This document shows, piece by piece, positions 6,701 to 60,500 of a stretch of DNA of 64,000 nt (positions are counted from its first letter, which is position 1; each line of letters opens with the position of its first letter). Location of the stretch: positions 14,722,818 through 14,786,817 of the forward strand of contig JAVGWX010000011.1 in assembly GCA_036924085.1 (NCBI GenBank). The letters are read 5' to 3'. This DNA is from Ariolimax columbianus. Lineage: Eukaryota; Mollusca; Gastropoda; Stylommatophora; Arionidae. A program made the translations under genes and the position numbers. The notes beneath the pieces were generated by a model. That model saw nothing but the letters and a program-made list of their open reading frames with translations, had not been told where the DNA came from and ran no database searches.

Positions 6701-9700
6701 ACACTTGTTTTCCTCATTTGTATGTCGTGCCAGATAGGAAATACTGTTACAGGAGATCGGCATTAGTGACGTTATTCAATATCGTTGCAGGAGATCAGGA
6801 TTAGTGACGTTATTCAATATCGTTGCAGGAGATCAGGATTAGTGACATTATTCAATATCGTTGCAGATCAGGATTAATGACGTTATTTAATACTGTAACA
6901 GGAGATCAATATTAGTGACGTTATTCAATACTGTAACAGGAGATCAACATCAGTGACATTATTTAATACTGTAACAGATCAACATTAGTGACGTTATTCA
7001 ATATCGTTTCAGGAGATCAGGATTAGTGAAGTTATTCAATACTGTAACAGGAGATCAACATTAGTGACGTTATTCAATACTGTAACAGGAGATCAACATT
7101 AGTGACATTATTCAATACTGTAACAGGAGATTGGCATTAGTGATGTTATTCAATACTGTTACAGGAGATTGGCATTAGTGACGTTATTCAATACTGTTAC
7201 AGGAGATTGGCATTAGTGATGTTAACCAAAAAGAAACTCAAAAATTTTCCATCAGGGGATATAAATGTTTCCATATAGATAGGAAAAATAGAGCCAAAGA
7301 AGGAATAATAACACTAGTCAAAAACTCTATACCAGCAGTAAAAACAAATAGATCTGGACCAGATGAACAGGAATACACCAGTTATGATAATCCTACCCAG
7401 TGGAGACTCAAGGATAACAAACTCATAGTGGGAGATTTTAACAGTCACTCCCCAAGCTGGGGGCTATGAAACAGTGGACAGAGAGGGGAGGAGGTAAAAT
7501 ATTGGATGATAGAAAATAAACTCATCCTAATAAAAAGGTCAGGCGATGGGCATACATATTACTCTAGAGTATGGGAAAAAATGAGTACTCTGGACCTTGT
7601 GATGGCAATGGACAACCTTCAATGGCTAATAGCAAGAACAGTCAACATCCAACTGGGTGATAGCAGCCATGTCCCAATAACTTTAGAAATATGTAACATG
7701 GGACAAACAGAGATAACAGAATTTCAACAAGCTGGAATTTCAACAGAGCAAACTGGACTCTATTTAGAGAAAATGTAAATAAACTCTGTCAAAAAATATC
7801 CCATGTAAAAAATGTTAACCATAATATCGCCATCGTGACGAAGGCTATCATTCAGGCAGCAAAGAAATCAATCCCACATGGGCAACGGAAAAGCTATAAA
7901 CCCTACTGAAGTGATAGACTAAGGAAAATCTACAAAGAACTAAACGAGGCAAAAGATACCATGGGGAAAAAATCCTTCACCAGAAAACAGGGAAACACAG
8001 CAAAATTAAAAACACATTTATAGAGCAAAAGAAGGATGAGATCCAAAAAAGTTGGCATGAAAATACTGAAAGACTCAATATGGACAGGGATACAAGTAAA
8101 CTCTGGAACCTGACAAGAGCCTTAAAGGAAGAAACCAGAGGGAGGCATGGCAAAACAGTCATTAAGGAAAATGAGAAACATTATAAAGGCAAATAGCAGC
8201 AAACATCCTGGCTGAATTTTTCAGAGAGAAGAGTACTACAACATTGACATGAGAACGCAAACTAAAGGTTAAACAGGAGATAAAAGAGAACCTGAAGACA
8301 CAGAATGCGGATCCCTACATGAAGGCATCATTCAAAATGATAAGAGTTAAACACTGCTATTCAGAAACTGAAAAATAAGAAAGCTCCAGGAAAAGATGGC
8401 ATCACAAATGAAATGATTAAAGACCTAGATCAAGGGGCAAGAAGAAAACTCCTGAAAATCTTCGACCAATCATGGAGCACAGGTAAGATCTCAGACCCAT
8501 AGTGGGAATCTATCATTATCCCCATCAGAAAATCAAAAAAGGACAAGACAAGCTAGGAAAGCTATAGGCCAATAAGTCTGCTCAGCTGTGTTTGAAAAAA
8601 ATATTAAACGCAAGACTAATAAAACATCTGAAAAAAACCCAGCTCCTACTCAACTCACAGTCAGCCTTTAGGAAATACCGCAGCACAGAAAACCAATTAG
8701 TATGCCTAACCCAAGAAATAGAAAATGCTTTCCAGGTTAAGGAAAAAGTACTTATGGTTTTTGTGGATATGGCAAAAGTTTTTGACAAGGTATGGAGAGA
8801 AGGATTCCTCCTTAAAATATTAAACAACAAAACAGAAGGGAGAATGTACAGCTGGATACGAGACTTTCTTCGATACAGAACAGCAAAAGTGAAATTAGAT
8901 GAGCCATAGAATAAATCTCCAATAAGGCATACCCGTGGGAGGAGTCTTCTCTCCTACCCTCTTTATCCTGTTCATAAACGATATAGTGGGGAAATCTCCC
9001 CAAGAAAGTATCCAGTGCCCTACACGCTGACGACTTCGCAATGTGGAGTGCTGCAGAAAACTACCAACAGCTAAAAACAGAATCCAGACGGCACTCGACA
9101 CTGTTGGAAAGTGGGTTACAGATTGGGGATTGCAGATTAACTTCTCAAAGACAGTTACAACATGCTGCTCACTGTCCAACACCAAGGAAGAAACAAAACT
9201 TAATCTAAATGGCAAAGAGTTTGTACAAAAAAAATACCCCTGTGTATCTTGGTTAAAATGGACAAGAGACTCATATTCAGGGAATACATACCGGAGATAG
9301 AACAGAAAGCAACCAGAAAACTATAGGCCAGTAATTGAATATGGCATGACAGCCTGGACCACATCATCAAAAACAAACACGGAACGCCTAAACAAAATTC
9401 AAAACTCAGGTTTAAGGATAATAACAGGCGGAATAAAGACTACACCAATCCAGACAATGGAAACATATACAAATATAAGATCCCTAAATACTAGACGAAA
9501 GGAAAGAGTGCTGACACATAATGAAAAGATGCTACGCATGCCTGATCATCCCATACATATCAAACTAAAACACCCAGTTAAAAATAGGCTAAAGAAAGAG
9601 AACCAGCTTCATCCATATATCCAACTACCTACACCAAAAATATGGAAAACTAATACCAACCTGCAGAAATAGAAATGCTTATCAACTATGAAGACCAAAG

Positions 9701-12700
9701 CTACAACATAAACAACACAGTGTCCAAGAGCTGAAAACTTTAGCGCAAGCAATGATTGAGTAGAAATATAATACCAAGGAATGGACACAGGTGTACACAG
9801 ATGGTTCAGCATAGGGGGCAGGTCGAAACGGGGGAGGAGGCATATTCATAAGAAATATAACAGAAGAGGCCCTCCCAACAGAAAAGTCATCCACAAACCT
9901 CAGAGCAGAATCTATGGCCCTCCTGCGAGCACTGAGAATACTTGAAACAGATAGGCAACCACCAACAAAAATAGCTGTATTCACAGACTGCAGAGTACTA
10001 TTAGAGGCAATACAAAAAACAAACAATGAACAGCTGTTATCAGAGATCAGAGCAGAACTGGGAAAACTCCAGAGATCCTCAACAATAGGGCTCCAGTGGC
10101 TACCCTCCCATTGCGGAATCATAGGAAATGAGAGAGCTGACACTCTAGCAAAAGATGGCAGAAAAAAGGCACAATTTAATCATTGAGTACCATACAGAGA
10201 GATCAAGAAGATCATAAGAAATCAGTATATACAACAATGGAGAGAAGATAGAAACACAAGCAGTACACCAGACCCAATTCACCAACTGAAAAGAAATAAA
10301 TAAACTACCGTATTTCGCAAAAGACCTGGACACTACAGACTACTAGAACATCTATATCGACTGAAGATCTCGCACACCGATGAGTGCCCATGTGGAACAA
10401 CAGGCCATAATCCTGAACACATTCTACAGGAAGGCCCAATCTATAGGAAAATAAGATACCAGACCTGGCCAGAGGGTGCGGAGCTGAGATAAAAGCTGTG
10501 GGGCAGCCGCTCTGACCTAGTGAAGACTACAGACTTCATCATGGTGACTGGCCTGCAGATATAGTATGACCAAAAGATCCTGAACGTAAAGAAGAAGAAG
10601 AAGTGACGTTATTGTGTTATGTTTTCAGTTTTGTGAGGTGGGTTGGCCAAAGGAAAACTGCAGCATGTGACATGGTCTAAGAAATATACCCCAGGGAAGC
10701 ATAGATTTAAGTATATACTGAAGAATCAGCAACAAGAGCACTGGAGAATGGAGGTGCTGCAATCTATGTAGTCTACCCAGATCAAGAAAAAGAAACCACT
10801 AGTTATTGCTGCAAAAAATAATAAAAAACAAGTTAATTTCAGCAGTTTGTATTCCTTACTGTTGCAATGTCAGTTCTTCAAGCCCTCAACTCACAAACTG
10901 CCAGAGTTTATAAAAGCCTTAGACGAACTAAACATAAAAAGAAGGGTAGTGCTACAGTGGATATTAAAAAAAATTTTTTTTTATTTACGTTCGCCTTATT
11001 TTTCTAATCCCCAAGGCGGTGTGCGTTCCACTGTGTTTTTATTTTGTGACTGTCGGCCCAGTGCATCCGACTTCAGCATGCATTTTATGTAAGGGTCTGC
11101 TTCCTCCTGCATTTTCTAAGGGTTTGCTTCCCCGGGGTAACGGCCGGTGCTGTGATGGGGATCGAACCCAGCACCTTCGGATTGTGAGCCGTGCCACTTA
11201 ACCACTAGGCCACGCCATCCCCTCTACAATGGATATAACCACACTGTGATATACCATGGAACAAGAGAGCACACAGGCAAGCAAATGAGGGAGCAACATG
11301 AGAATAAAAATAGCAAATAATCACCTTCCGGAATGATGAAGAAGATCCTTATCCAAGACATAATGAAAGTTGACCAAACGAGAGAGAACTATCACCACCT
11401 TGATCAAGTAGAGATTGTGACCCTATTCCACAGGAGAACGGACATAACAGATTGAATAGCTACTTACAAAGACTCAAATTGGCTCCCATTGTCCATGTGT
11501 ACCACCTATTCAATAAATTGAAGATAAGTGGCATTGACGAATGCATGTGCGGTACTGGGAAAATGACCGCTGAACATCTGCTGCAGGAGTCATGAGTAAA
11601 TAAAAGTGTGTCATGGAAGATACCAATACTTTACCTGCACACCCCTTCACACTGTATAGCAATAAAATCCTCTGCTATCTTGTTATAGATCAATTCTTTG
11701 AAAGTTATTTTTGTGTCTCTTTTCCCCAGGCTGTTAACAAATATATTGACATTGAAGTAACAGCTCTCCAGTCAGCTAAAGAAAGTCAATCGAGCACAAC
11801 TTTAAACAACAGGGATAAGAAAAAACAAGAACTATGTTCTCTTTTCAAACTTGTCGTCAGATCTGCTAATAAAGGTATGAGCAAACATTTAAAACTTTAC
11901 ACAGGATCCACTGATAAAAGTGTGAACAAATTTCAGTATTTCAAACGTGTCATCAGATCTGCTGATAAACATAAGAGCAAATATTTAAAATTGAACACAG
12001 GATCTGCTGATAAAAGTGTGAACAAATATTTCAAACTTGACATGATCCACTGATAAAAGTATGAACGAATTTCAGTATTTCAAACTTGTCATCCGATCTG
12101 CTAATAAAGGTATGAACAAATATTTTAAACTTGATGCATGATCTGTTTATAAAAGTATGAACAAATCTCAATATTTCATACTTGTCACGTGATCTGCTTA
12201 TAAAAGTATGCACAAATCTCAATATTTCAAACTTGTCATCAGGTCTGCTCTATTTATCTCTATTTATTCTCACTGCTGAGGTCCATATGGCTTAGGAATA
12301 AAGGCCGCCGCTAAATTACCTTTCCACGGCCCACTAAATAGTAAACATACTCATTGTGGGCATTAAACAACAAACTGTCCTGGTCAAGTGGAGGTTTGTA
12401 GGAATGAAAGAGATGACATCCTGGTCTCAAGGGCACCCATAGTAGTGATGTGGGCAATGTATTGTTGTTGTTGTTTAATGCTCATAATGAGTGTTTACTC
12501 GTTTGTGTGCCCTGAAAAGGGCATTAAGTGGCGGATTGTAGTAGCTTTCCTAACATCCCAAGTGTGCTGATGAAGGTAGGTCCAGGTGGTTGGCTTCATC
12601 TGCGTGACACTACTGTGGGGATCACGTCGATTCACATCTTGTCAACCAGACTGCCTAGAAAACAGACTATTTACAGGGAACACTACATGAAAGAGAGATA

Positions 12701-15700
12701 GGGGTCTTGGTCAGTATATTGTTTCTGGCCCTGACGCGACATCCTGGTCAGAATGTTGTGCCTGACCAGACTAGCGTCTGTTCCCGTTAGGCAATGGATA
12801 GAGGTGACATTTTGAAATTGATCAACTAACCACCTCTTGGATGAAGACACTGCAATTGATGAACCGGTGATGCACAGTTTTGAAATCATACTGGCGTTAA
12901 GCAGCGAGGAGCAACTAAGCAACTGGCACAGGATTGTGTACAACCAGCGAGCTATGAGAACCATCAGTATCTACACTCTTCACCATTTACTGATAGAGAC
13001 TGTACCTATGGGTCTACCTGGAATGCGATGACATTGATTCCTAATACAACAGAATAGGGAATAAAAAATTAATATTATATAAAGATTTTTAAATAATAAA
13101 TTTTTTACAGTCAAATTTGGATGGGTGAAAGTACAGCAGTAAATGAGCTGACAGCGGCCAGCAACTGATAAATGACCAAGGCTCTATTATGCCTTCAAGT
13201 AGCAGCTCTGAAGAATGACTGCAATCATGCAGCCTCGCTAAGAGAAATTTGGTCCCCAAAATACTGTGTTGATATAGGATGTGTTGGGTCGAAACATGCA
13301 GATATCGCAGCCATGTTGCAAACTACACCACGTCACAAACATTTTTTTCAGGACAGATGAAGAAGTTGTTGTTATCCCATAGCCGCCGAGCAAGGCAACT
13401 TTTAGCAGCCCAATTCCATTCTTGTATAGATCCAGGTCTTGTTCAGTTGTTTCACTGCTCCGTACAGTGTGTTGGCAATTGTAGGCAGTGATTGTAAGAA
13501 TCTTTTTCTAATGTTTGCAAGCACCTTGCACTCAATGAGTAGGTGTCTAACTATTTCATCAGGGTGAGAGCAATGACTGAACAAGGGCAGATGCTGGGGA
13601 TTGATGCGCTTCAAGTAGCTATTGACTCTGGCGTTGATCTCTTCTATGAAGTTTATTTATGCCATCATTTCTTTTTGGCTGTGACATTTTGCTAAATACA
13701 CCATGACCTGTTGTTCCCGTCGCCCACCAGTTCATCCAGATTTTCAGAGTATTATTCTTATTCGTTTTACTGTGGGGTTACTGCAGAGTCTATCCAATTG
13801 TTGTTTCAAGGCTCCTGTTTTTGCCAATCTGTCGGCCACCTCGTTCCCTAGTAGCCCACTATGTCCAGGGATCCATTGCAAGGTGACATTTATCCCGTGG
13901 GCAGTGATGATACAGAGTTTATATAATACATGCAGAAATTATGTGTGGACATCAAATCAAAAGTCAGGAGAGTTCATGAGCACTACCGAAGTAAGACAAG
14001 GTGACATTCTATCATCGTACCTTTTCATACTCCTCATGGATGAAGTCATCAAAGCCTGCAAGGAACGGACAAAAAAGTATGAAGTAGGGTACTGGAAGAA
14101 TGACTTTGATGTGTCCTGTTTGGAACTGAAAGAAGAGGCTTTGATCTCTTCTATGTAGTTTATTTATGCCATCATTTCTTTTTGGCTGTGACATTTTGCT
14201 AAATACACCGTGACCTGTTGTTCCTGTCACCCACCTGTTCATCCAGATTTCCCTTGTATGAAGAAGAAGAAGAAGATAATAAAATGAGTTATTTTGTATT
14301 GATATCAATTTGTGTCTCATGTAATTTTTTGATCTGAACTTTCTCACAGGAAAGGCCAAGTTGAGCTTTCAGCCGCTCATTGAGAGAATAGAAAATATCC
14401 TTACTGACACATACACACTGGAAGCTTTTGGAATGGATTACAGCAATGTATTTCTGAAATATGTGCTATGTCTCAGACCCTACTGGCTGAAAATAAGTCC
14501 AGAAAAGTGGAGAAGTGAGTTATATATTAATAAATTGTTTCAAACAAAAATGTGTGCAACCCTACCCTTTAGCGCGCACTGGTCAAGAATGTCTAGACTC
14601 ACGCTCCATACACAAAAACGCAGACACCCCCGACAGCCATTTTTTAAATGCTGAATACGTCATCCATATATACACGATATTTTGTCGGTTAAAGTATCGT
14701 ATGTGAGATTACAAATGGGGGACGGCGTGGCCTAGTGGTTAAGTGGCACAACTCATAACCGGAAGGTGCTGGGTTCGATCCCCATCACAGCACGGCCGTT
14801 ACCCCGAGGAAGTAAACCCTTAGAAAATGCAGGAGGAAGCAGGCCCTTACAAAATATGCATGCTGAAGTCGGATGCACTGCGCTGACAGGCGCAAAATAA
14901 AAACCTCAGTGCAACGCACACCGCTTTGGGGATTAGAGAAATAAGGCGAACACAAAAAAAAAAAAAAAAAAAAAAAAAAAAGATTACAAATGGCTTTTGA
15001 GCAGTTTTAATTTTGCATACGCCGTTTGGAGCAAGCCGACTTTTTGCGAAAGGTGAAGTAGGTTGTTGGAAAAGACCTTTATCGAGTACATCTGTTTATT
15101 TTGTTTGTTTAGATGAAAGAACTACGTTTGAATTGGAAACTAACAGTTGTGTCAATATTGTAAACACAGTATCGATACGTTGTTATGGTTTTTTTATCGG
15201 TCGAGTCCAAATTTTTCCAAGATTTTCATAAATTTTCAACTTCATCTTTTTGTAACTCAGAAACTAACAAAAACAACAACACCCACAAGTTCTTTATTCA
15301 ATTGTGTCTCTACACACAAGAAAATCATATTTATTGACAAACAAACAGAAAAGTTACAAATTTGGAAAGTTGACTACCATAGCGAGATGCACATTTTTCG
15401 TAAAAGAAGATTTAGCGTGCTAAAGATTAATTAGAAAACTGGAGTCAGAAAGTGGAATAAATAATAGTAATACTATAACCTGCCAGGCACATCGTAAGAG
15501 ATGACTAAGGAGGGTTGTGCATGGTACTGCCTACCCCATTCTGTAGAAACTTTAAACCAGAAGAGCTTCAATATTTGTGGGTAAGTCAGTAAGTAGGTCA
15601 CAAACTGATATAGTGTAGCTGAAAAAATTTAGTTGAGAGTTTATAAAGGTGTCATTAGGTGACAACAACATCTAGCTTTGTGATTACTGTAGAAAGATAT

Positions 15701-39500: not shown

Positions 39501-42500
39501 TTTAGAGAAATTGATTGATGTTTCTTACAAAGACATCTCTTAGTGCGATGTTTGTGGCATATTCTTAGTGACATGCCATGTCTCTGAGACAAGCAGCAGG
39601 ATCAATTTTACTTTAGAATTGAAATGTCTAATCTTACTTTCTCTGTTTTCATATTTGAGCGAAGAGAATAAAAAGCCGTCCAGACTTTGTAGTAAATTCT
39701 GATGTCAACATATTGGTATAATGCTACGTCTTTGTTAGTATCATTTCTCAGTGGTCACAAGGTAAGGTATCCGCCTCGAATGCTGGAGGTTCAAGGTTCT
39801 AATCACAGTGGAGGCCGGGACTTTTTTCACACGGATCTTCTGATAAAAATTCCCCTGATCTCTGGTTAGTGAGATCTGACTCTAGTGTTCAGTATCGAGC
39901 ACATAAAAAATTACTTGGCAGTTAAAAATCTAATAAAGTAGGCTACACGGCCACTGCCCGGACAAAATTTAAGTTAAAAATCTACCCACGTTATTTGTAC
40001 CTATCTGCAGGTGGTTTGTTAAGAGCAGCTATAGATGGCACCAAAAAATGATTACATGTCTACTTAGCTCTAGTGTTTGAGTTTATTAAGATGGATTTGC
40101 ACTTCGGTTAAACTACCCTCCAAGAAACTGGTTGTATACAGACTCTGTAGAGTCTTCTAAACCAGTATAAAGACATCGATTCTGAAATAGTCCTAATACA
40201 AATCTGAAGATTAGTAAGTCTGCAGAGAAACTGAAAATCAGATGTAAATAATCGATCGTATTACGTACTTGGTCGTTCTGTGCATTCACACACAATCAGA
40301 TCACACACACACACATGCTCCAGCTGGAACTGTCACACCTATTCCTACTGATTCTGACTGAAACAGATGTTTTACGTACCACCAATCCAGATCGAATGGG
40401 ATTGTAAAGAGTTTAAAAAAAAACCGAAACATTAAAAATTGTGTCTCTAACAGTTACTCACAGATAGCAATGAATCCTACAGGACCACCCTAACTTATGT
40501 TTTGTATGCAAGTTGACATGTATATAAGTTTGGTTAGAAATAACTGTCTTAGAGTACTCCAGTGAGGCTGGTTTTCACATAATTTTTCTCTAGGCTTCAA
40601 GTACTGCATCATTTTGTAACCCTTTTCAGTTTTGGAAAATTTGCCGATTTGCATTTTATTTAGAAATAAAATTCCTTACAATTGAAAAAAAAATTGAGCT
40701 AAAATTATGATTTGAACATCGTAAGACACATAATTAAACTATCTATGACATGAAATATTCATAATAAAGATTATATATTAGAATGAAGCGTTAAATAACA
40801 TTAATGCACAGGTGGAAGTCGAAAAGGACAAAATTTTTTGGTATATACCACATTGTGTGTTTTGCCTAAATTTATGTCAATTCCTTTACATATACCTTTC
40901 ATATCATGTGTCCCAGTCAAAGTATACATTTTGTGTGTGTTGAATATTCATGATCATATCCACTGATCAAATAATAAATGGCTTGGCTTTGTTCGTTCTC
41001 AATCTCCCACTACCAAACCCTGAAAGGGCTTAAGTAGCAGAATGTAGTCCAGAGAACGGAATGTGTTGTGTCATAGTTCTACAGCTTGACTGCGATATTT
41101 GCACCTTTCGGTCCAACACATCCGACTTCAGCAAGCATTTTTTAAGTACCGGGTTAGCATTCCCTCTTCGATCTCTTCTCCTTGGCCAGTCTACCTGCTG
41201 TAGCCTGTTATCCAGGATCACCACTTGGAGGTGTAGAAGGGTCTTGGCAGCTCTAGTTTGCTGGCCCTGATGCTAGCAGTCAGCTATGGGTCGCTGACCA
41301 CTGCAGCTCATGCGCTGCTCAGCATCTTGATCCCAAATAATAAATCATTTCCACGCTCTTTAAACCTAATTTTTTTCGAAATAAATGTGAAGATTTTTAA
41401 AGGTCATAACACGCACAAATGTAAAACTGCAGGAAATATCCTAACAGTTAAGTATCTATTGCACTGGTGTGAATGCAACCATTGTGTAGAGTCATTAAAA
41501 AATGAAATTCCACAAACAAAATCACGAAATGAAGATGTCTATTTTGGCCGTAAAAGGAGGCCAGTTGTAGGTCTACGACATTTGATTTTGGTGCCTACAA
41601 TCATAACAGTTCAACAAGTATCTAGATTCCTATGGTGAAACATGCCTTGCTACCACTATATACAAGTTGGCATCAATGCAAGTTTGGTTAGGAACCACTG
41701 TTTCAGAGTATTCAATTAAACTGGTTTTCACATTATTTCTCTCTAGGCTTCAAGTACTGCATCATTTATTAAACAAGTACCCAGAATCCTTTGGTGAAAC
41801 AGGTCTTACAACTGCTCTTCAAATGATGGTTGTCATGCTGGCGGAGTGCAAAAAGTTTGTTGTTGTTTGTTTGTTTATTTTTCTTCAAATCTATTCTCAC
41901 AACCCAGACATGCATATGATCAGTTTCAACAAGTTCGTGTCCCTGTGGGAAGTAAACCTATTAGAAATATGTATACTGAAGTTGGATGCACTCGCCTGTA
42001 AGGTGCAAAACTCAGTACAACTCACTTCACCTTTGGAAACAAGGTGAACAAAAAAAGAGGTTGAATATTTCCTAATTTTCTTATTGATGAAAGTTATCTT
42101 TACCATGCTAGGCTAATTTAAAAAAAAATACTAAATGAGATCGTCGTGTAGCATGTCTTGGCAGAACGTTGCTCTCAGCGCTGCCATTCAATAGGAATCT
42201 CAATCAGCAGTTAGTCTACCTGCCTGCCCCATGTTGATGTTTAGGGTGTCGTTGATGCTTTGTGTCCATCTACGTCTTGGTTGACCTCTGCCTCGTCTTC
42301 CTGTAACGATGCCCATCAGAACTGCTTTTTCCAGTCCGTCATGGTGTTTGATGTGGCCCGAAAAACCTGTTTCCGAGACATAACACATAAGCCAGTTTTC
42401 TTCGACACTCAAATCTTGCAGGATGGCTTTATTTGTTATTTTCTTTACCCAAGATATTTTGATGATCCTTATGCAGCATTTTGTCTTGACAGGCCTGATC

Positions 42501-45500
42501 CTCTTTCTTAATATTTATGTAATGATCCATGTCTCCCATCTGTATATTGCCACCTGAAATCTTAAATACGCATGTTCTGAGGATCTTCAATTTTAATTCT
42601 TTGTTAGTATTGTGCCACACATTTTGCATACTATTGAGTTTCTGCATTGCTATGGACAACCGTCTCCTTATTTCCCTTGCACAGTCCCAATCGTTTGTAA
42701 TAAAAAAGCCAAGGTATTCAAAATAATCCATGTGTTCAATTTCTTCATTACCATTAGTAATCTTGGGCTGGGGTCTGTGTGTGTCAATGAATATTATCTT
42801 TATATTCAGGAAAAGATTCTGATCTTTACTGTGCTTCTGAACAGACGTAAGCAATTGTATCAGGCCCTCAGCACCGTTTGAGAGAGTAACTGTGTCATCT
42901 GCATATCTTAGTTCTGGAATCTCCTTTCCTTGAATTGAGAATGGGTCGAAATTCACAGTTTTCATTAATTTTTACCTTTCACGTGATATTCTCCGCGTAC
43001 ATGTTGAATAAGTAGAGGGAGAGGATGCAGCCTTGCCTAACACTATCTCAAACAAATGATTTTGTTATTATACATTTTTGACCGTGAGTATTGCCATATC
43101 TTCAATTTATTTGTGCCTAACTTATATTATGGCTATGATATTCTGTGTTACAAGTCCACAAAGGTAAGACCAATATTGTGAGAATAAATACAGTTGAGAA
43201 TGTTCTGATTGTGCTAGACACAGCTGTTCTCCAAAATGTGGATTCATTCCTTTATCTGAGCAATAACGTGGACAAATCTGAGAGCACAGAGAATGACATT
43301 CACTTAAGAATCAAGAAGGCAGGGGTAGCTTTATTATACCGGAGCTTACGTTCACTAGCAGAGGAATTGAATTTGCTGTGTTGCTAGGGACAGTTCAAAT
43401 GGTGGTTAGCAAGAAACTGATGTATCGTAAGGTGTTCACAATGGGAACCGATACTTCAGTATCTTGCTAACCACCATTTGAACTATCCCTAGCAATACAG
43501 TGAATTCCTCTGCTAGCGAACGTAAGCTCCAGCAACAGTTCACCTGAATTGCTGCATCAATTTTGGCGATAGCATCTTCTTCTTCGTACGCTGTCACACG
43601 TCAACCTTTATTTTTTCGAAAAAAGCAGCGGCCATCCTGAGGCTGTCGACACTGCCATAGAGCTTGTCTAGTGTTGCCACTGGTGATGGCCACATCTGCT
43701 TTCTCTGATCCTCGTAGGTCGGGCAGTTTTGCAGCAGATGTTCAGCGGTCATTTTCCCAGTACCGCGTGTGCATTCGTCGGTGCCACCTATCTTTAATTT
43801 ATTGAATAGGTGGTACATCAGTCTATTGTGGCCAGTGCGAAGTCTGAAGACCACGACCTGCTCTCTTCTGTACAACTGGTAATAGGCATCGATTTTTGTG
43901 TAGTCAGTATGTTCGGTTTCCCATTTGGTCATGTATCTAGCTCTAATAAGCCTTTTTGACTCTTCGTATGTCACACTAGTATTTGGTTGTGGTAGTCTTG
44001 CACCTTCTTTTGCCAGTCTGTCTGCCTCCTCGTTGCCTTGGATGTTACCCACTGTACCACTACTCTTTTTGGTGCGGACTGCTGGCATAGTTGACAGAGT
44101 ACTGTACTTAAATCATTAAGTTCAGTATTTTTCTGGCTTTTTAGTGCTGTGACTACGGCCAGGGCATCTGTAAACAAGACTATATGACTTTCATTTCTTT
44201 TGCATGTCACCATTTCTTCTACTGCAGCCCTCAGTGCCTCTGCCTCCACTCTGAAATTGCTTGAGTATTTTCCAGTTGCCACTGATAGTGTTGTTTTTCT
44301 ACCATTTGGTAGGCTCAGGAATACCCCTGCCCCTCCATTCTGTGTTGTGTTTGTTACAGAGCCGTCGGTGTATGCATGGGTCCAGTCCATGCTTTGGTAG
44401 TTTTTCGTTATGTACCTCAGGGTAATGTCTCTTCTTTCTTTTTCAGTCTGGCTGTTCTTTTTTCCAATACCTGGTATATTTTCTACCACCTCTGGAAATA
44501 TATACTGCCTCCAGGTAGGTTTGTGTACAGTAATGATGGGCTTTGGTGTTGTTAGTGTGTTCATAGGGTCGTTCATCTTTGATTTGGCTATTTCTGCAAA
44601 GTTTCTCAGCTTTAGTTTCCCATTTCCAAAATTATTTAGTCTCTTATGCATTGGATGGTCAGTCAGTCTTCTGAGTTTTTCTGCTCGCTGTTGGGCTCTG
44701 CAGTCTCTTCTGTCGGTCATGGATTGCAGATTTGTAATCTTTTCCAGTTCTACAATTGGCGTTGACTTCAGGCCTCCTGTTATAACTCTCATGGCTTGGT
44801 TTTGGAGTTTGCTAATTTTGTCAAAGTTCACCTTTGCTGCTGTTGTCCATGACGCAATCCCATACTCGAGAACTGGTCTCACTCTTCTAGTGTACAGTTT
44901 CTTTAGTATACTTTCGTCTGCTCCCCAGCTTGTGCCAGCAAGTTTCCTCATGATTGCTATTCTTTCTCTGGCTCTCATTCGGTTTCTCTCGATCTGACTT
45001 TTCCATGTCATGCGGCGATCAAATGTGACTCCCAAGTAGTTTGGGTTGTCGTTTGGCCCCAGATATTTGCTGTTAAGACTTATTTTGGTGTTTTGGGGTT
45101 TGTTTGAAAGCGAGAATATCGTACATGTTGTTTTTTCCTCATTTATTTTGACCAGCCATGAGTTCGCCCACTCCTCCAGCGATGTTAGGGCCTGCTGCAT
45201 CCGATTACTTGCTATGGTGAGATTGTTTTCAGAGGTCCACATAGCCAGATCGTCTGCAAACATGGAGCTGTGGACTCTTCTTGGTATATTCTCTGCGATT
45301 TTATTTATATACACCAGAAAGAGTGTGGGTGACAGTACTCCTGCTTGGGGTACTCCCTGCTCAAGTGTCACGTTTTTGCTCATCTGCCCTTGTACTTGAA
45401 CTCTGGCTGTTCTATTTTTGAGGTAGTGGATAGCAGCTTATTAGACAACAATATACACCTGACCTGGTCTCGAAAGATCTTTCGTTAACTCGTGTCCTTC

Positions 45501-48500: not shown

Positions 48501-51500
48501 GCTGACCAACTTTCAGAGTTATCAGAAAACAGGTTGCACACCCATATCTGACAAAACTCATCAATATATGCCAGTATCTTTTCTACAAGGCTTCAGATGG
48601 TTTGAAATCAGAGTTTTTCTTCTCCTAGATGATCTGCCTTCCTAGGCTTTCGAGCTCCATCTGCCCGAAACTACTGCTTTTAAGGCCCCAGTAGCTCATC
48701 TTCCGCCCCGTATCCTGTTAGTAAAAACAGTTCTGCCGCACGAAGGCCAGGAGATGAACTTTGTTGTCAGAGGCTATATGAGATGCATGCCATGGGAGCA
48801 TTTAGTTGGTGTTAAAGAGTTCATCCTCAACCCCACCCCCGGCTATAATAACATTTAGAACCTATGTTCGATTAGGATAAACAAAAAGGTGACTGATGAT
48901 GATCGATGCAATGTCAATAAAAATCAAGATTGAAAAAAATTGTTTTCTGTTTAGATTAGATTGTCTGTTTTCAATGTTTTATAATAAGCAATGATTTCTT
49001 GTCTGTTTTGTTCTACAGCACCATAAATTCCCGCCAAGCAGAAGTTGAGGGCTATCAGGAACATGGTTTTTATGTCATGGCCTGCATTATCAATTCTGGC
49101 CTTGTTTCACCAACAAAAGAGATCTGGAATTTATTTCTTCACACATTCAGTCACCCAAGCCGTGCAGCCGATCAGTTGTTGACATCTTTAATCATCACAC
49201 ATGGGCTGCCAGAGAACCACGTTCCAAGTATTGTCGGAGCACCATTCGATAAAAGTGTGATTGAAAAATGCCCTGCATATCCTTTGAGGCAGTCACTTAT
49301 CACCTGGTTGCTTCCAGTTGTAGATGTGGAAAGTGTGAGTCAGTTTCGGATGACCATGTCCCCTTTGAGGGCAGCGGAAATTATATATGCACTCACCCGT
49401 CAAGACCCATCTGTGATACAGACTGACTTGAGTTATCCCGTCTTATCAAACAAGAGTTCTGAGTCATCATTGTTAGAAACCACATACCTTAAGTCGACCT
49501 TTGACCACCAGTCTAAAAGGAGACAAGAATTACAAAAACAGCAAGACTGGTTACGGAAACAGCGGGAGAAGAATGGTTGCCAGCACAGAAATATGCATAT
49601 TTCTGTGGTTTTAGAGTTTCTGTTGAAGCATCTGTCCAATTTGTCTAACAGTCTTGATCAACAGGTAAGCATATTTGACTCAAATACAGACTGCCAACAC
49701 ATACTGGTTCCTAGTAAGACAGTGACAGGCTACTCACACTGACTCATAGCACTTAGACCAACTGATAACTCTTACTGACTCATAGCACTTAGACCGACTG
49801 ATAACTCTCACTGACTCATAGCACTTAGACCGACTGATAACTCTCACTGACTCATAGCACTAAGAATGGTACAGCTCTCACTGACTCATAGCACTTAGAA
49901 TGTGACAGCTCTCACTGACTTATACGACTAAGAATGTGACAAACAGCTCTCACTGACTTATAACACTAAGAATGTGACAGACTTCTCTCACTGACCTATA
50001 ACACTAAGAATGTGACATACATCTCTCACTGACTCATAACACTAAGAATGTGACAACTAGCCCTCACTGACTTATAACATTAAGAATGTGACAAACAGCT
50101 TATGACAAACAGTTCTCACTGACTTATAAGACTAAGAATGTGACAAACAGCTTATGGCAAATAGCTCTCACTGACTTATAACACTAAGAATGTGACAACT
50201 AGCCCTCACTGACTTATAACATTAAGAATGTGACAAACAGCTTAGGATAAACAGTTCTCACTGACTTATAAGACTAAGAATGTGACAAACAGCTTATGGC
50301 AAATAGCTCTCTTTGACTTATAACACTATGACAAAAAGCTCTCACTGACTTATAACGCAAAGAATATGACAAACAGCTCTCACTGACTTATAACAAAGAA
50401 TATGACAAATAGCTCTCACTGACTTATAACACTATGACAAATAGCTCTCACCGACTTATAACACTATGACAAATAGATCTCACTGACTTTATAACAAACA
50501 GTTCTCACTTATTTATAATACTAATGATGTGACAAATAGCTCTCACTTATTATAACACTGAGATGGATAGACAGCTCTCACTGCTAATAGTGGTTTTTCT
50601 GTTCTGATGATGACTTTGCTGTTCTAGTGGGGGCTTTTCTGTTCTGATGGTGATGGTAACTTACCTGTTCTGATGATGGCTTTTCTGTTCTGGTGGAGCT
50701 TTTCTGCTGTGATAATTTTCATTGCTTCTGTATATGCCATGTTTATTTTAAAATTAAATTTTTTATGTACTTTGTTTAGAACATCCAAATGTTTTTGAAA
50801 AATGTTTTGCTCTGGAAGTATTTTCTTCTTCGTCTTGTCCCTTTGTCACTCAATTTAGAGTATAAGCCACTACTACAAGTCGTCTCCTTATTAGGAAGCC
50901 TGGTAAGGACCTCTGAGATCATCAAATCAGAACACTCTGAGTGCATGATGACACTGTTTATCAGGAAAAAGAAAAACCTAATTTATTAACAGATTTTGTT
51001 TAGATGTTAATTTTTTAAGATTTTAATGCAAATTTTTAAGTTTTGTGAAAACTCCAGACAAAAAGTGTTTGGTTGAAACAAATTTGACGTTGTCATGCAT
51101 ATGACTTGGCTTGGCTTCATTTGTTCTCAATTTCCCGCTACCAAACCCTGAATGTAGTCCTGAGAACGGAATGCGTTGTGTCGTAGTTTACAGCTTGACT
51201 GCGATATTTGTACCTTTCGGTCCAACACATCTGACTTCAGCCAGCATTTTTTCAGTACCAGGTTAGCATTCCCTCTTCGATCCCTTCTCCTTAGCCAGTC
51301 TGCCCTACTGCAGCCTGTTATCCAGGATCACCGCGTGGAGGTGTAGAAGGGTCTGGGCAGCTCTGGTTCGTTGGCCCTGACACTAGTAGTCAGCTATGGG
51401 TCGCTGGCCACTGCAGCTCATGCGCTGCTCATCATCTTGATCCCAGACATGCATATAAACATTAGAAGTGTTCGGTGAAGTGTATGCGGATGATATCTTA

Positions 51501-54500
51501 GGTTATTCATTGCCACTCCTCCAATGATGAGCCATGGCAACCCCATTATCTATTTGAATACCATTATCTGTGTAGATATTAAAGAGACAAGGGGATAATA
51601 CACATCCTTGTCTCACTCCTTTTTACATCTTTACTTGGAGAGCATATCTTTCTTCATTTTACTGTCATAGTTTGTTTAGTACAAATTACTGAGCAGTTTT
51701 GTGGAGGTACATACACCGAACTGCCAAATTGGGAATGGACTATTTTCACACACACACCGACACACATACACACACTGATATCGATGGCTCTGGTTAAAAG
51801 ATTAAGGTATGGCATATTTATGGTTTCATTTTTACGCTGAATCTGTGAAAGTGTAAATAACACATTGTTTGAATATTCCCAGGATCCAGAGTTTCTTTCA
51901 TGGTTCGGCAGTCATTTAACGAGACTGCTATACCACCTTTGGGATGATGACACAACCACTGCAAGCATTCAAACCACTGCAAGCATTCAGCGTATCCTGA
52001 AGAGAGTCCTTGGAAAATTGGCTGATGTTCTAGTGTCACAATTGCAGACTGAAATGTTGTCATGCATTTCATCACACTTATCAAAACTGGCTTCGATGTT
52101 AACATGGGAAGAAGAAACAAATACTAGAATGTTCCTCACTGCAGAGTTTGTCCGAAGCTGCTTTCCTGATAGTTTTGTAGATGTGCTTCTGGATTTTGCA
52201 AGTGGCAAGGTTAGTGGTTAATTTATAGTTCTTTAGCTCTTTGAACACTAACTACCCAGTCAGAAAAAATCCCATTTCCCTGTGCTCCTAAGAAAATATG
52301 CACAATGTAAACATTTTAGCAAAGCTATTTACTATATTAAAACTATGTGCTCTAATTTAGTTATTTTATTTAAATTTGACTGGCCTACTAATCTGCAATG
52401 TTCCTACTTCAGTAGAGTGGAATTTATTCAGCAAATTTACTTTATACATTATGTGGGATACACCCCTGGACCATAGTCTGATCCTCCTAGGAACAGATCT
52501 AGCTTGATCCTATTCAATGATCCTATTCAGTGTCTCGAAGAGAGAAGAATTCGTGGTGACTTAATACAGGTTTATAAGATGATCAGAGGAATCGATAAAT
52601 TAGACTATAACAAGTTTTTTAAAATACAGCCACCTACAATAACACGAGGGCATAGCTACAAGCTGATTAAAGAGAGGTCCAGGTTAGATATTAGGAAATA
52701 TTTTTTTAGTCACAGAGTGGTGTCTGCTTGGAATGCATTGCCAGGGGAGGTAGTGGAGGCAGGGACAGTTAATGCATTTAAGAATAAACTGGATGCGCAT
52801 AGATTTTAGAGCAAGGTGATGTAAATGTAACTGGTTGTATACAGACTCTGCAGGGTCTTCTAAACCAGTATAAAGATGTTAAGTTAAGATAATTCAAATC
52901 ACATTTATGTTGTCGCTCAAATAACAACTGATCCAAATATCCTTTCAGTTACTTTCAGAGTCTTGTTCTTTTATTAACCTTTTTCTGAATTTTCAAAACC
53001 CCTTTACAACATGAAAATCATAAAAATCATTGTACTTAGATGTTTACGCCGCCATATTTGTTATTTCTGACAGTGTATACTTTCAGAGTCTTGTTCTTTT
53101 ATTAACCTTTTTCTGAATTTGAAAACCCCTTTACAACATGAAAATCATAAAAATCATTGTACTTAGATGTTTACGCCGCCATATTTGTTATTTCTGACAG
53201 TGTATACTGTGTAGACGTCACTATAATATGGCCAAAACCCAAGCAGTACGGTCCAAAATACACCTTAAAATAATGGTCCACCCGTCACACCGGCAAACGG
53301 GTGGCTCAGGGAATGGGGTATTTACACTCACCTCGAAATATGATTGTTATGGGTTCAAAGGGTTGAAGTAAATTTAATTATGTCTCGTGTTCTTAACCTT
53401 TACCACTTGAAATGCTTGTTTTCAAACATGCATGTTTTATGTCTGATGCCAGGTAGCCGAAGATTTCAGCTATGGGTAGTAGGTATTTTAGAACTTCCTA
53501 CGGCTTACTAGGCCTCTGAGAAGGTACAACTATTTTGGGTATACTTTTAAAATTTGAATTTTAAAATTTTGTCTGGGCAGTGGCCATTAGACTTACTCTT
53601 TTTCTATTTTTAACTGCCAAGAGATTTTTAACGAGAAACACGAGAGTCCGATCTCACTACCCAGAGATCAGGGGAATTTTTACCAGAAGATCCACGTGAA
53701 AAAAATCCTGATCTCCACCGTGATTCGAACCTGGGACTTCTGGCACCTGAGGCGGACACTTTACCTTGAGACCACTGAGCCTCCTACCTTTACCATCACA
53801 CACACAAAAAAAATTACCGCAATTTTCCCTGCAGCTGCATTATTATTCAGCACATCAGTTGTTATTATAGTTGTTGACTTTAAAAGCCTGTAACTTTTTT
53901 CATTTGTTGGTCTATAGATGTGATTGTTTGTGTGTGTATAAATTAATACACAAATTAATTAGAGACATAAATTAATAAAGAACTTGTAGGTGTTATTGTT
54001 TTTGTTGTGTGTCTGAGATACAAGAAGATAAGCTGAACATTTTTGAGATTATCACAAAGGACGGAAAAATGCTCTTGTACAAGAACAGCATTTCTGTTCA
54101 TTTCCACTACAAATGTATTTATTACATCTACATAAACAAACTAAACTGTCCTACCTCAGAAAAATCCTTTGCAACAACTTAACTTCATCACCCTCAATAA
54201 TGGGATAATCTTCCAAATTCAATGATAAAGAGAATAAAAAAAAAAAAAGAATAAAGAGAATAAATCATGTAAAAATTCTCTTTAAAATAAAAACAAGCCA
54301 TTTTCTCGGTTGATATTGAAGCGGATAGAAGTGAAGTCTATATTTAGATTCAAAATACATGTATATTCAGCAATTTTTTGTAGCATTAACCTAGGTGATT
54401 TTACAGAGTAAACCAATTCTAATGGGATATCTCAACTATGTCCATAAAAATTAAATTTTTTTTCAGGCAAGAAATCTCGCCATAGGTGTGACAAAAGTTT

Positions 54501-57500
54501 CGGTATATGTGGTTTATAAATATATTGTATTTGCAGGACTCATTTTATGGCAGGGCTAGGTTACAGCAAAATAAGGGGGCAATTTTTTTCAGGCAAGAAA
54601 TCTCACCAGAGGTGTGGCGAAAGTTACGGATATCTGGTTTATAAATATGTTGTATTTGCAGGACTCATTTTATGGCAGGGCTAGGTTACAGCAAAATAAG
54701 GGGGCAATTTTTTCAGGCAAGAAATCTCACCAGAGGTGTGACGAAAGTTACGGATATCTGGTTTATAAATATGTTGTATTTGCAGGACTCATTTTATGGC
54801 AGGGCTAGGTTACAGCAAAATAAGGGGGCAATTTTGTTCAGGCAAGAAATCTCACCAGAGGTGTGACGAAAGTTACGGATATCTGGTTTATAAATATGTT
54901 GTATTTGCAGGACTCATTTTATGGCAGGGCTAGGTTACAGCAAAATAAGGGGGCAATTTTGTTCAGGCAAGAAATCTCACCAGAGGTGTGACGAAAGTTA
55001 CGGATATCTGGTTTATAAATATGTTGTATTTGCAGGACTCATTTTATGGCAGGGCTAGGTTACAGCAAAATAAGGGGGCAATTTTTTTCAGGCAAGAAAT
55101 CTCACCAGAGGTGTGACGAAAGTTACGGATATCTGGTTTATAAATATGTTGTATTTGCAGGACTCATTTTATGGCAGGGCTAGGTTACAGCAAAATAAGG
55201 GGGCAATTTTGTTCAGGCAAGAAATCTCACCAGAGGTGTGACGAAAGTTACGGATATCTGGTTTATAAATATGTTGTATTTGCAGGACTCATTTTATGGC
55301 AGGGCTAGGTTACAGCAAAATAAGGGGGCAATTTTTTTCAGGCAAGAAATCTCACCAGAGGTGTGACGAAAGTTACGGATATCTGGTTTATAAATATGTT
55401 GTATTTGCAGGACTCATTTTATGGCAGGGCTAGGTTACAGCAAAATAAGGGGGCAATTTTGTTCAGGCAAGAAATCTCACCAGAGGTGTGACGAAAGTTA
55501 CGGATATCTGGTTTATAAATATGTTGTATTTGCAGGACTCATTTTATGGCAGGGCTAGGTTACAGCAAAATAAGGGGGTAAAATGAAAAATCGTTTAAAC
55601 AAGACTGCATTAAAAAAAAAATATTGCTGAGGTAGGATTTATAGGGATAAAGAACAAAGTCCTTACCCCTGCAGTCGTCATGCATTGTATAACTTCTCAC
55701 TAGCTATAGCAAATTTCTGTCAATGTTCATGACTATAATGTGTTTGACTGTCTGTGCTGCTTGTCCGCATGTACACATGGCTGATGGTTTCAATTGTCAT
55801 CATGCTGCCCTTGGTGTATTAACATGATATTATCCAGCTCTTGGATTATTAACTTGATATTATCCAGCTCTTGGATTATAAACTTGATGTTATATTGCTC
55901 TGGATTATTAATGTGATGTTTTCCAGCTTGTGGATTATTAACTTGATATTATCTAGCTCTTGGATTATTAACATGATATTATCCAGCTCTTGGATTATTA
56001 ACTTGATATTATCCAGCTCTTGGATTATTAACTTGATATTATCCAGCTCTTGGATTATAAACTTGATGTTATCCAGCTCTTGGATTTTTAACTTGATATT
56101 ATACAGCTCTTGGATTATTAACTTGATATCAAGGTTCCTTTCTGTAATAACTTGATGTCCTAATGCCCTTTGTGTAATAACTTGATGTCCTGCTGCCCTT
56201 TGTGTAATAACTTGATGTCCTGCTGCCCTTTGTGTAATAACTTGATGTCCGGCTGCCCTTTGAGTATAATAACTTGATGTTAGGAGTCCCTTGGCCATTA
56301 ACTTGGTTTTGGCCTGTCCTTTATTCATTAACTTGACATCATGCTGTACTTGGTCCATTAGTTTGACTTATGCTTTGACTTTTTTGGGGGCGTTTTCTTG
56401 TACTGTGTTTTGCTCCTTAGCTGCTCAATGCATCCAACTTCAACATCTATTTAAAACCTCATGATTCCAAACACAAGCAAGTTTGGGTCGTGACCAGCGC
56501 CTCTAACCACTTTGCCATTTAACCCCCTGGTCATGAATGATAATGATATATTGAAGATATATATTGTATCCTTTTTTTCTAGTATTAAATTACATTTAAA
56601 AAAATATTTTTTTCATCAGTTGAACAAGAGGAGAGATTCTAAAAATACTTCAAGAGGATCCTTTATTCGGCATCATTCAGCGACTGACAGGAGAGAAACT
56701 GCCAGTACAAGCAGAACAGATATGGACTTGGAATTTCAAACTTTTGACATGGCTGGGCCTTCATGCTTGAATCACAGCAGTTCTGGCATAGACGACTTTG
56801 ACAGCGATGATAGCCTGAGGGACTCGGATAATGGATCATTGGCTAATCAGGGTTTGTTTTTGACTCATTCCTCCTAGTTTCCCTTGGAATTACGTACTGT
56901 TGTGTTAGCACCCCACCAATTTTATCTTGGGGTGTCTTTTTGGGAGCTCCACCCATGAATTATTTTAGCATCCTCTTCCCTTAATGTCTTGATCAGTATA
57001 TTTCACCTGACCCTGGTCTTTGTTCCCAACACTAGAATAGAAAGTTCAATCCAGGATGGTATTAATAGAGAAGTCTGGCTGAAGATCAGTGCTTTGAAAG
57101 GGAGGAAGACTAATGTCTGGTCAGGGTCAGGCAAAATATACTGGCCGAGACCCCTACCTCAATTTCTTCCTCGTAGTCCTCCCTGGAAATGTAGTTTTTC
57201 TTGGCAGTCTATCAAACGAGGTCGAGGATTGATGTGATCCCCGTAGTAGTGAGCGACACAGGTAAAGCTAAGCATAGTACAATAGCCTGAAGGACCTTCA
57301 TCTGTAACCTCGGGATGTGAGGAAAGCTTCTGCTACCCGCCACAAAATGTCCTTTTCAAGGCACACAAAAGAGTAAACCTACTCATTGTGGACATTCGCA
57401 ACAACAACAACAACAACATACAGTTGAAAGAGAATGATAATAATAATGACGATATAATCTCTTTAACTGTGAACTGGTAGCTCTTGACAGCCCAATGCCT

Positions 57501-60500
57501 TCTGGGCAAAATCACATGACTCACTCAGTTGTTGTGGGAATGTGTTATGTATGATGGGTGCGGTTGAAACAGCTGGTTTTGCAGCTCTGTTAGCCCTGGG
57601 CATATGGACAGGAGGGGCTTGACTTATTCCTTGTGGTGGGGACAGAATCTGCAATTTAGTTCACAAAATGAGTCTATTCTATTCAGATGTCTGTTGAGAG
57701 TGGCATGGCTTTTTCTCTGCTTGAAGATCAAACTCTGGTCTCTTTTTGATTGTTTGGCTGAGTCCTGCGAATCTGGTTTTGATTGTTTGGCTGAGTCCTG
57801 GGAATCTGGTTTTGATTAGTTTGGTTGAGTCCTGCGAATCTGGTTTTGATTGTTTGGTTGAGTCCTGCGAATCTGGTTTTGATTAGTTTGGCTGAGTCCT
57901 GCGAATCTGGTTTTGATTGTTTGGTTGAGTCCTGCGAATCTGGTTTTGATTAGTTTGGTTGAGTCCTGCGAATCTGGTTTTGATTGTTTGGCTGAGTCCT
58001 GCGAATCTGGTTTTGATTAGTTTTGTTGAGTCCTGCGAATCTGGTTTTGATTGTTTGGCTGAGTCCTGCGAATCTGGTTTTGATTAGTTTTGTTGAGTCC
58101 TGCGAATCTGGTTTTGATTGTTTGGCTGAGTCCTGCGAATCTGGTTTTGATTGTTTGGCTGAGTCCTGCGAATCTGGTTTTGATTGTTTGGCTGAGTCCT
58201 GCGAATCTGGTTTTGATTGTTTGGCTGAGTCCTGCGAATCTGGTTTTGATTGTTTGGCTGAGTCCTGTGAATCTGGTTTTGATTGTCTGGCTGAATCCTG
58301 CGAATCTGGTTTTGATTGTTTGGCTGAGTCCTGTGAATCTGGTTTTGATTGTCTGGCTGAATCCTGCGAATCTGGTTTTGATTGTTTGGCTGAGTCCTGT
58401 GAATCTGGTTTTGATTGTCTGGCTGAATCCTGCGAATCTGGTTTTGCTTGGTGTCTGAAATATTTTTGGCATGTCTGCAATGTAGCCCACTGATTTAAGC
58501 ATTCTTGTCTATAGTTGTTTTTTAGGATCTACCTGCAGGTCTGGAGTGTGATACTAGGTAGTGGCTGTGGTAGTGTTGTTCTGCTTCTGGCCAGTTCATC
58601 AGCTGTAACATTTCTTGGGACTCCAACATGCCCAGATATCCAATGGATCACCACTCAGCTCTATGAGAGGTGGACATTTAGCCAATTAATTTGTCGATGT
58701 TATTAAAAACGGGAGACATTTTATTTTTCAAGAATTGGGAGTGCCAATCTTTAGTCTGAGAACATAATTTTATCCTAAGGCGATGTGCTGCCACTGAACT
58801 ACAATAAAGAAGTAGAAAAGGCGTTCATTGCACTGTCATAACATTATTTTTAAATAATTTTCTTCTATCTTATCATGTTAAGCATTGCTATTTATTTACT
58901 GTAATATTGCTTCCCTAATATTAAAAGAAATGGTTGTTGTTGTTTCGAATGCCCACAATAAGTAGATTTACTCTTTTGTGCTCCCTGAAAAGGAAGTTAA
59001 GTGGCGAGTTGCAGTAGTTTTCCTCACATCCACTACTACGGGGATCACGTCGATCCCTCACCTTGTTAGCCAGGCTGCCATCAAAACAGCCAGTTTCCAG
59101 GAAGGGCAACTAGAAAACTGAAGTGAGAGTCTTGACTAGTATATTTTGCCTGACCAGACGTTAGTCTTCCTACCCCCTATCAGTGGTTGTTGTTGTTTTG
59201 AATGCCCACAATGAGTAGGTTACTCTTATGTGTACCCTGAAAAGGGCGTTAACCCTACCACGCCGCTGTACCTAATTATCGGTAATTTCCTAAACTGCCG
59301 CTAAACCGCTGTACCTAATTTTCGGTACTTTGGATAGTACGTCATAAAATGGATCAGAATCTAAAAATAACCAACCAATCGTGGTCAATCCTCGTGATTA
59401 GTCATTGCAAATGGCTGCCCCCATGTTTGAATTGATTTTGTGGGGTTTAACGTGAACAAATTCGGAAAATTTACAATGAAACAAACGGCTGATGAACCAA
59501 GCACTTCAACAGGAAAGCAAAGTAAGTCTAGGCTTATGACAGTCCAACAGGTGATCAATAATTTGGTTGATTCAGACTCTGTTCAAGTGAAACAGACAGT
59601 GAGAGCTCGAGTGATGAGATGAAGGCTTTTCTTGGACTGAGGATCTATATGGAATACTCATGTATAAAGCCCAGCTATCAGGATTATTGGACAAATGAGG
59701 GCTCTTTGTTGTGTTAACTCCCGGATTTCGAAATGTTTTATGACTCGAGACAGATTCTTTGCCTTTTGCTGGGTGGATTGGCACACAAAGGTGGAATATT
59801 GACGCTAGATGAACGGTAAACCTATTTTCTACAATGTCTCCTCGTTACATCTTATTCTAACCACTTGTTTGCATGTAACTAACATTTTTCTATATCATGT
59901 TGGTTTTTTCTCATTAATGCTCTGGAACCCAGGAATGGTGGACAGTTGGGTTCAGGGCCTTAGGTCTGGTAGGGTTAAGTTGCAGTAGCATTCATCACAT
60001 CTCGAGCGTGCTGATGAAGGTGAATCGGGGTCCGAGCGTGTTGCTCACTACTACGGAGATCACGTCGAACCTCACCTTGTTAGCCAGACTTGTCCTCGAG
60101 AACAGCCTGTTTCCCCCCTATCAGTGGTAAAAACATGTAATACTATCAAGTGGGCTCTTAAACAAGATCTTCAAAGGCAAAGGCAAGGTCCCTGACAAGA
60201 AAAAAACAGATGTAGCGTCAAGAGGTGCTGTGCAGATTTTGTTTGAAAGTGGGTGGACAAAACTTAGAAAGATTGAAAGATAGCAAGGTTATGGTGTTGG
60301 GCAAACAGACATGGCGGCAAATAGTTTGTGAAACCATGGTGAGATGTGATCCCCTAGGGTTATGGAAAAGACGAGACGAAAGATAGTCCCATAGCAGATG
60401 CTGCTGTTGGGGATGAAGTGTTAAAAACTTCAGTGTACGAGACCACAATTTGGTTATGATGTCGAAGTGGCCTTCCTTGTTGCCTTTCCTTCTTTAATAG

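Follow-up and report, generated by a model that had tools for sequence, protein, structure and literature searches.

The plus-strand open reading frames of the window (the whole stretch of 64,000 bases that was analysed) read as an ATM gene of gastropod type. Part of the long ORF at 48960, used as a protein query, gave three matches: proteins of Physella acuta and Aplysia californica that are named ATM or ATM-like, and a hypothetical protein of Bulinus truncatus. Using the Physella, Aplysia and Bulinus proteins in tblastn, we find 14 collinear ATM exons from 3643 to 63794; four weak, out-of-order matches were left out (three from Aplysia, E 0.33, to the array at 57744-58450, and one from Bulinus on the minus strand, E 0.83), and exon ends were picked by hand from homology and splice signals. 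A search with the N-terminus of the Physella protein returned eight proteins, from Physella, Aplysia, Biomphalaria, Bulinus, Potamilus, two fishes and a cockroach. We take Physella, Aplysia, Bulinus and Biomphalaria to be heterobranch gastropods, Potamilus a bivalve, Festucalex and Paramisgurnus fishes, and Periplaneta the cockroach. On these matches, the source animal is most likely a gastropod near the heterobranchs. By eye, the introns also hold broken ORFs resembling LINE-type reverse transcriptase and RNase H (7182-10186 on the plus strand and 43594-45437 on the minus strand), and an ORF at 56494-56877 with a Ser/Asp-rich stretch, located between exons 12 and 13, is a candidate ATM exon overlooked by tblastn.

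Our analysis centers on exon 3 and the intron that follows it. Exons 3 and 4 together (104 residues) match the TAN domain PF11640 above the cut-off (E 5e-7) and align without gaps to chain residues 65-164 of human ATM from the PDB (phmmer E 3.4e-14), so that the exon 3-4 junction is gapless against the human protein. Exon 3 is also covered by the tblastn matches of Physella, Aplysia and Bulinus ATM. These comparisons of exons 3 and 4 jointly, plus the gastropod ATMs, are what point to ATM. They replace the peptide FKLVVRSANK, encoded at the end of exon 3, which an earlier note on this DNA had described as a match to vertebrate ATM; human ATM shares only 3 of its 10 residues (K, A and N), so the peptide is a weak argument alone and it is the whole exon that carries the homology.

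At the end of exon 3 lies a tandem array. TRF rows cover 11843-12249, and a repeat finder reports six copies of a 25-nt element from 11843 to 12249. We cut the array into units at a repeated TTT, the start of each unit below, which shows the 45-nt segment at the junction of ATM exon 3 and intron 3 to be present, in diverged form, about 8.5 times. The slash in the motifs marks the exon-intron boundary or the corresponding place in a copy.

11730 to 11874, plus strand: ATM coding exon 3, 145 nt, starting in phase 0 and ending in phase 1, within the TAN domain; acceptor AG at 11728-11729, donor GT at 11875
14350 to 14514, plus strand: ATM coding exon 4, from homology, the expected splice partner of exon 3; donor GT at 14515
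11843 to 12249, plus strand: whole tandem array, eight full units and a 25-nt partial unit, from TRF, the repeat finder and unit alignment
11843 to 11887, plus strand: unit 1 (45 nt), the founder, joining 32 nt from the end of exon 3 (11843-11874) to 13 nt of intron 3, with the real donor AAG/GTATGA at 11875
11888 to 11938, plus strand: unit 2 (51 nt), donor-like AAA/GTGTGA at 11920, which would add 45 nt in frame and without a stop
11939 to 11983, plus strand: unit 3 (45 nt), GT lost at the donor place (AAC/ATAAGA)
11984 to 12028, plus strand: unit 4 (45 nt), donor-like AAA/GTGTGA at 12016, which would add 141 nt in frame and without a stop
12029 to 12077, plus strand: unit 5 (49 nt), TGA at 12051-12053, donor-like AAA/GTATGA at 12059
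12078 to 12122, plus strand: unit 6 (45 nt), the unit closest to the exon end, with the exact donor 9-mer AAG/GTATGA at 12110 (plus 235 nt)
12123 to 12173, plus strand: unit 7 (51 nt), donor-like AAA/GTATGA at 12155
12174 to 12224, plus strand: unit 8 (51 nt), donor-like AAA/GTATGC at 12206
12225 to 12249, plus strand: unit 9, partial (25 nt), the end of the array

Pairwise identity between units ranges from 0.64 to 0.92 over the first 44 columns. The reading frame is broken in unit 5 because this unit is two bases shorter than a 51-nt unit, and the ORF through the array ends at the TGA at 12051-12053. Some units of the 51-nt type contain TTTCAG, a possible acceptor for an internal cassette exon by eye.

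The array is in register with the exon-intron boundary and includes it. The best local match between exon 3 and the array joins the exon tail to 12078-12109 with 30 of 32 sites identical and a score of 54, while the same comparison in 1000 dinucleotide-preserving shuffles gave a mean of 18.8 and a maximum of 29. By contrast, the body of the exon (11730-11842), which we considered as a possible part of the array and rejected, scores 21, a value equalled by 152 of the 1000 shuffles. Given that the exon tail stands far above the shuffles and the exon body at their level, the repeat register starts at 11843 and the exon end lies inside it. The proposal that the array begins within exon 3, its first unit being the exon end plus the donor, is thereby confirmed, and the alternative raised with it, an exon end lying outside the register, is answered by the same alignment. 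Likewise borne out is the suggestion that a unit at about 12077-12120 recreates the junction: unit 6 is a mismatch-free repeat of CTAATAAAG/GTATGA, and its GT, at 12110, lies 235 nt beyond the real donor.

Comparative data indicate which of these sequences is the original. The tail of exon 3 has a homologous, ungapped position in human ATM and in the four gastropods (Physella, Aplysia, Bulinus and Biomphalaria). Because the ATM proteins of these relatives carry the tail at the same place, we regard the tail as ancestral and a genuine coding exon as the source of the array, and the view that the exon is original and the intronic units are copies is upheld. Two codons bear on the order of events. 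At the fifth residue of FKLVVRSANK, all four gastropods have I and the exon has V (GTC); the other four proteins aligned have V (Potamilus and Festucalex), I (the second fish) and T (the cockroach). None of the 8 intronic units has GTC at this codon: units 3, 6 and 9 have ATC (I), units 2 and 4 ACA, unit 7 GCA, unit 8 ACG and unit 5 AT followed by a deletion, so that 5 of the 8 have neither GTC nor an intact ATC. At the seventh residue, T in all four gastropods, a serine codon is found in the exon and in all 8 intronic units. Both sites would be explained if copying took place in this lineage once T had become S but while the exon still had I in place of V, a suggestive reading only, the polarity of copying resting on these two sites.

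Among the closest known parallels are the 'mirage' minisatellites of lancelets, one of which, in the gene Adh3, is reportedly the subject of a paper by Canestro et al. 2002. Two reports describe lancelet mirages as minisatellite-like tandem duplications that span an exon-intron boundary and have AG/GT signals in many, though not all, copies (PMC3087553, PMC3902484); the genes named there include Adh3 and the globins BflGb6 and BflGb9 (PMC3087553), with PGBD5 and TnC as further cases (PMC3902484). Adh3 data and RT-PCR reportedly suggest that mirages do not interfere with regular splicing, the clusters are described as variable in length, and the copies are said to be still able to serve as cryptic sites (PMC3087553). 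The ATM array shares with mirages its position across an exon-intron boundary, the splice signals in its copies and a similar unit size (10-72 bp in Adh3); it differs in lying in the ATM gene of what appears to be a mollusc, and the length variation and normal splicing are reports from lancelets.

Here too the copies carry splice signals. Of the 7 full intronic units, one has AAG/GTATGA, five have a GT preceded by A at -1 and one has lost the GT; at the donor place, GT thus survives in 6 of 7 and the exact 9-mer in 1 of 7. We consider it very likely that the array is a lineage-specific minisatellite of the mirage type, seeded from the exon-intron junction, with the original donor in use and little or no function for the copies. 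Replication slippage or unequal exchange would have duplicated the exon 3/intron 3 junction in this lineage, after which the intronic copies would have decayed: a six-base insertion may have produced the 51-nt unit type, unit 5 would have lost two bases, and in 6 of the 7 full intronic units either the GT or the preceding G (at -1) would have disappeared. Splicing would keep using the donor at 11875, with the copy at 12110 an occasional cryptic site at most. The array is probably neutral. We also considered a coding or once-coding repeat and rejected it: minor letters amount to 24/127 at first, 15/120 at second and 12/128 at third codon positions of the units (raw counts, with no statistical test), and since third positions vary least, the copies give no hint of coding constraint. 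The array is a real exon-derived minisatellite, ordinary in its likely origin.

A different outcome had been proposed in the earlier note, which saw the array as a built-in source of unproductive splicing. In a fuller form of this reading, the donor at 12110 would compete with that at 11875, adding 235 nt with the in-frame stop at 12051 and sending part of the ATM transcripts to nonsense-mediated decay. The geometry is correct as computed, and the same stop is met from the donors at 12059, 12110, 12155 and 12206, whereas those at 11920 and 12016 keep the frame into exon 4 without a stop. By a generic donor matrix, not fitted to molluscs, 12110 and 11875 tie at ranks 3 and 4 among the 162 GTs of 11731-14299, 12110 is the only array copy to equal the real donor's score, and two intronic GTs outside the array (12576 and 13564) outscore both, so that high scores also occur away from the array. 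The identical 9-mers, the tied scores and the premature stop that the added 235 nt would bring are what the proposal has in its favor. Against it are the two stronger GTs, the length of the extended exon (380 nt versus 145) and the lancelet mirages, which reportedly leave splicing undisturbed (PMC3087553, PMC3902484). Unproductive splicing from the array is therefore possible but unsupported, and we consider it unlikely; of the earlier interpretation, the seeding from exon 3 and its donor and the priority of the exon are supported, and the role in unproductive splicing is not.

The minisatellite of human IFI6, whose original description as a splice-donor array is said to be Turri et al. 1995, lies at the donor end of an exon, has a short unit and keeps a strong donor in most of its units. 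Most ATM intronic units have no strong donor, by contrast, and only 1 of 7 keeps AAG/GTATGA. In IFI6 (also 6-16 or G1P3), two downstream repeat units are reported to be used as donors, giving three mRNAs (PMC4526556). In both arrays, a single intron-exon region is supplied with several donors by its repeat units, and they differ in that donor use was seen in IFI6 mRNAs, while the ATM array is known here from its sequence.

A molluscan counterpart of IFI6 would be a copy-number-variable tuner of ATM splicing, in which the length of an allele sets dosage or isoform mix; if this were true, the surviving donors would bring in either a premature stop or an in-frame extension of the TAN domain by 15 or 47 residues. 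We consider this very unlikely. Likewise very unlikely is a reading in which the donors at 11920 and 12016 act as alternative in-frame sites and lengthen the TAN domain of ATM by 15 or 47 residues. The intact frame into exon 4 would allow it, as would unit lengths of 45 or 51 nt, multiples of three, in 7 of the 8 full units, and the reported use of repeat units as donors in IFI6 (PMC4526556) offers a precedent. Neither site has G at -1, however, and both score -0.24 against 3.2 for the real donor on the generic, not mollusc-fitted matrix; the codon-position pattern of the units is opposite to coding constraint, and the insert would split a region that is gapless against human ATM.

That the array instead derives from a dispersed satellite or a transposon, a piece of which inserted at the end of the exon and replaced its tail, is scarcely credible: the sampled genome is array-rich and the window has ORFs that look retroelement-like by eye, but the tail has homologous, gapless counterparts in relatives, and strong copies of the array are found neither elsewhere in the 64,000-base window (best E 0.26) nor in 200,200 bases sampled from a single contig of this assembly (best E 0.065).

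The abundance of arrays also bears on how surprising the mirage-type minisatellite should be. By hand, we merged the 44 TRF rows of the window into 24 arrays, which occupy 7034 of its 64,000 bases; an exon edge falls within one of them, and two have some overlap with an exon. Random placement would put 2.1 arrays on an exon edge in the window (P of at least one, 0.90), against one observed. In a genome like this, arrays at exon edges are therefore to be expected. In the genome sample, 20 stretches of 10 kb and one of 200 bases from that one contig, 84 arrays with a period of at least 10 cover 35,444 of 200,200 bases (approximately 18 percent), and this sampled stretch of the genome is minisatellite-rich. 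The exon 3 array fits the idea that exon-edge arrays arise by chance where minisatellites are dense, and array-rich genomes would be the place to count them. Another array in the window, at 54457-55578, repeats a 125-base unit nine times (98 percent matches), with an acceptor-like T-run and CAGG in the consensus; it lies 2248 bases from the nearest ATM exon found.

The moderate interest of the exon 3 array is in its place and its gene: minisatellites at exon boundaries, described in lancelets, are now seen in an apparent mollusc and in a key gene of DNA repair. Among the matches listed in a search of the open-licence literature, none described a mollusc exon-boundary minisatellite. The abalone TSSK1-like gene has a polymorphic intronic minisatellite with a 27-bp unit (PMC6905558), likewise inside an intron of a gastropod gene; the part of that paper available makes no mention of an exon edge or splice site being included. 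A paper on gastropod hemocyanin discusses intron gain, and the word 'minisatellite' is absent from the text obtained (PMC7931591). Exon-edge arrays could provide raw material for new donors or introns. In the model of Rogers, as cited in PMC3087553, introns are gained by tandem duplication of AG/GT proto-splice sites, and potato RdRp is reported as a case of intron gain by tandem duplication (PMC4974935). The process shares with the ATM array a junction duplication that yields spare splice signals, and the two differ in that ATM has no new intron, the exon 3-4 junction being gapless against human ATM.

As a control, we compared the flanks of all 14 homology-found exons with the exons themselves. 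A partial copy appears near exon 3 (score 54, downstream) and near exon 9 (score 43, upstream), and the remaining 26 flanks, including the upstream flank of exon 3 and the downstream flank of exon 9, score 15-25. Within exon 12, an 18-base unit, TTASIQTTASIQ, occurs in two perfect copies at 51954-51989, an in-frame tandem duplication of six residues; near it, Physella and Aplysia have a six-residue gap. At exon 9, the segments 41610-41670 and 41769-41829 agree at 44 of 61 sites and in the same frame, as a diverged partial copy of the exon in intron 8, 159 bases upstream (score 54; the highest of 500 shuffles is 34). This is a second exon-derived copy in the ATM gene, possibly left by an old exon duplication.
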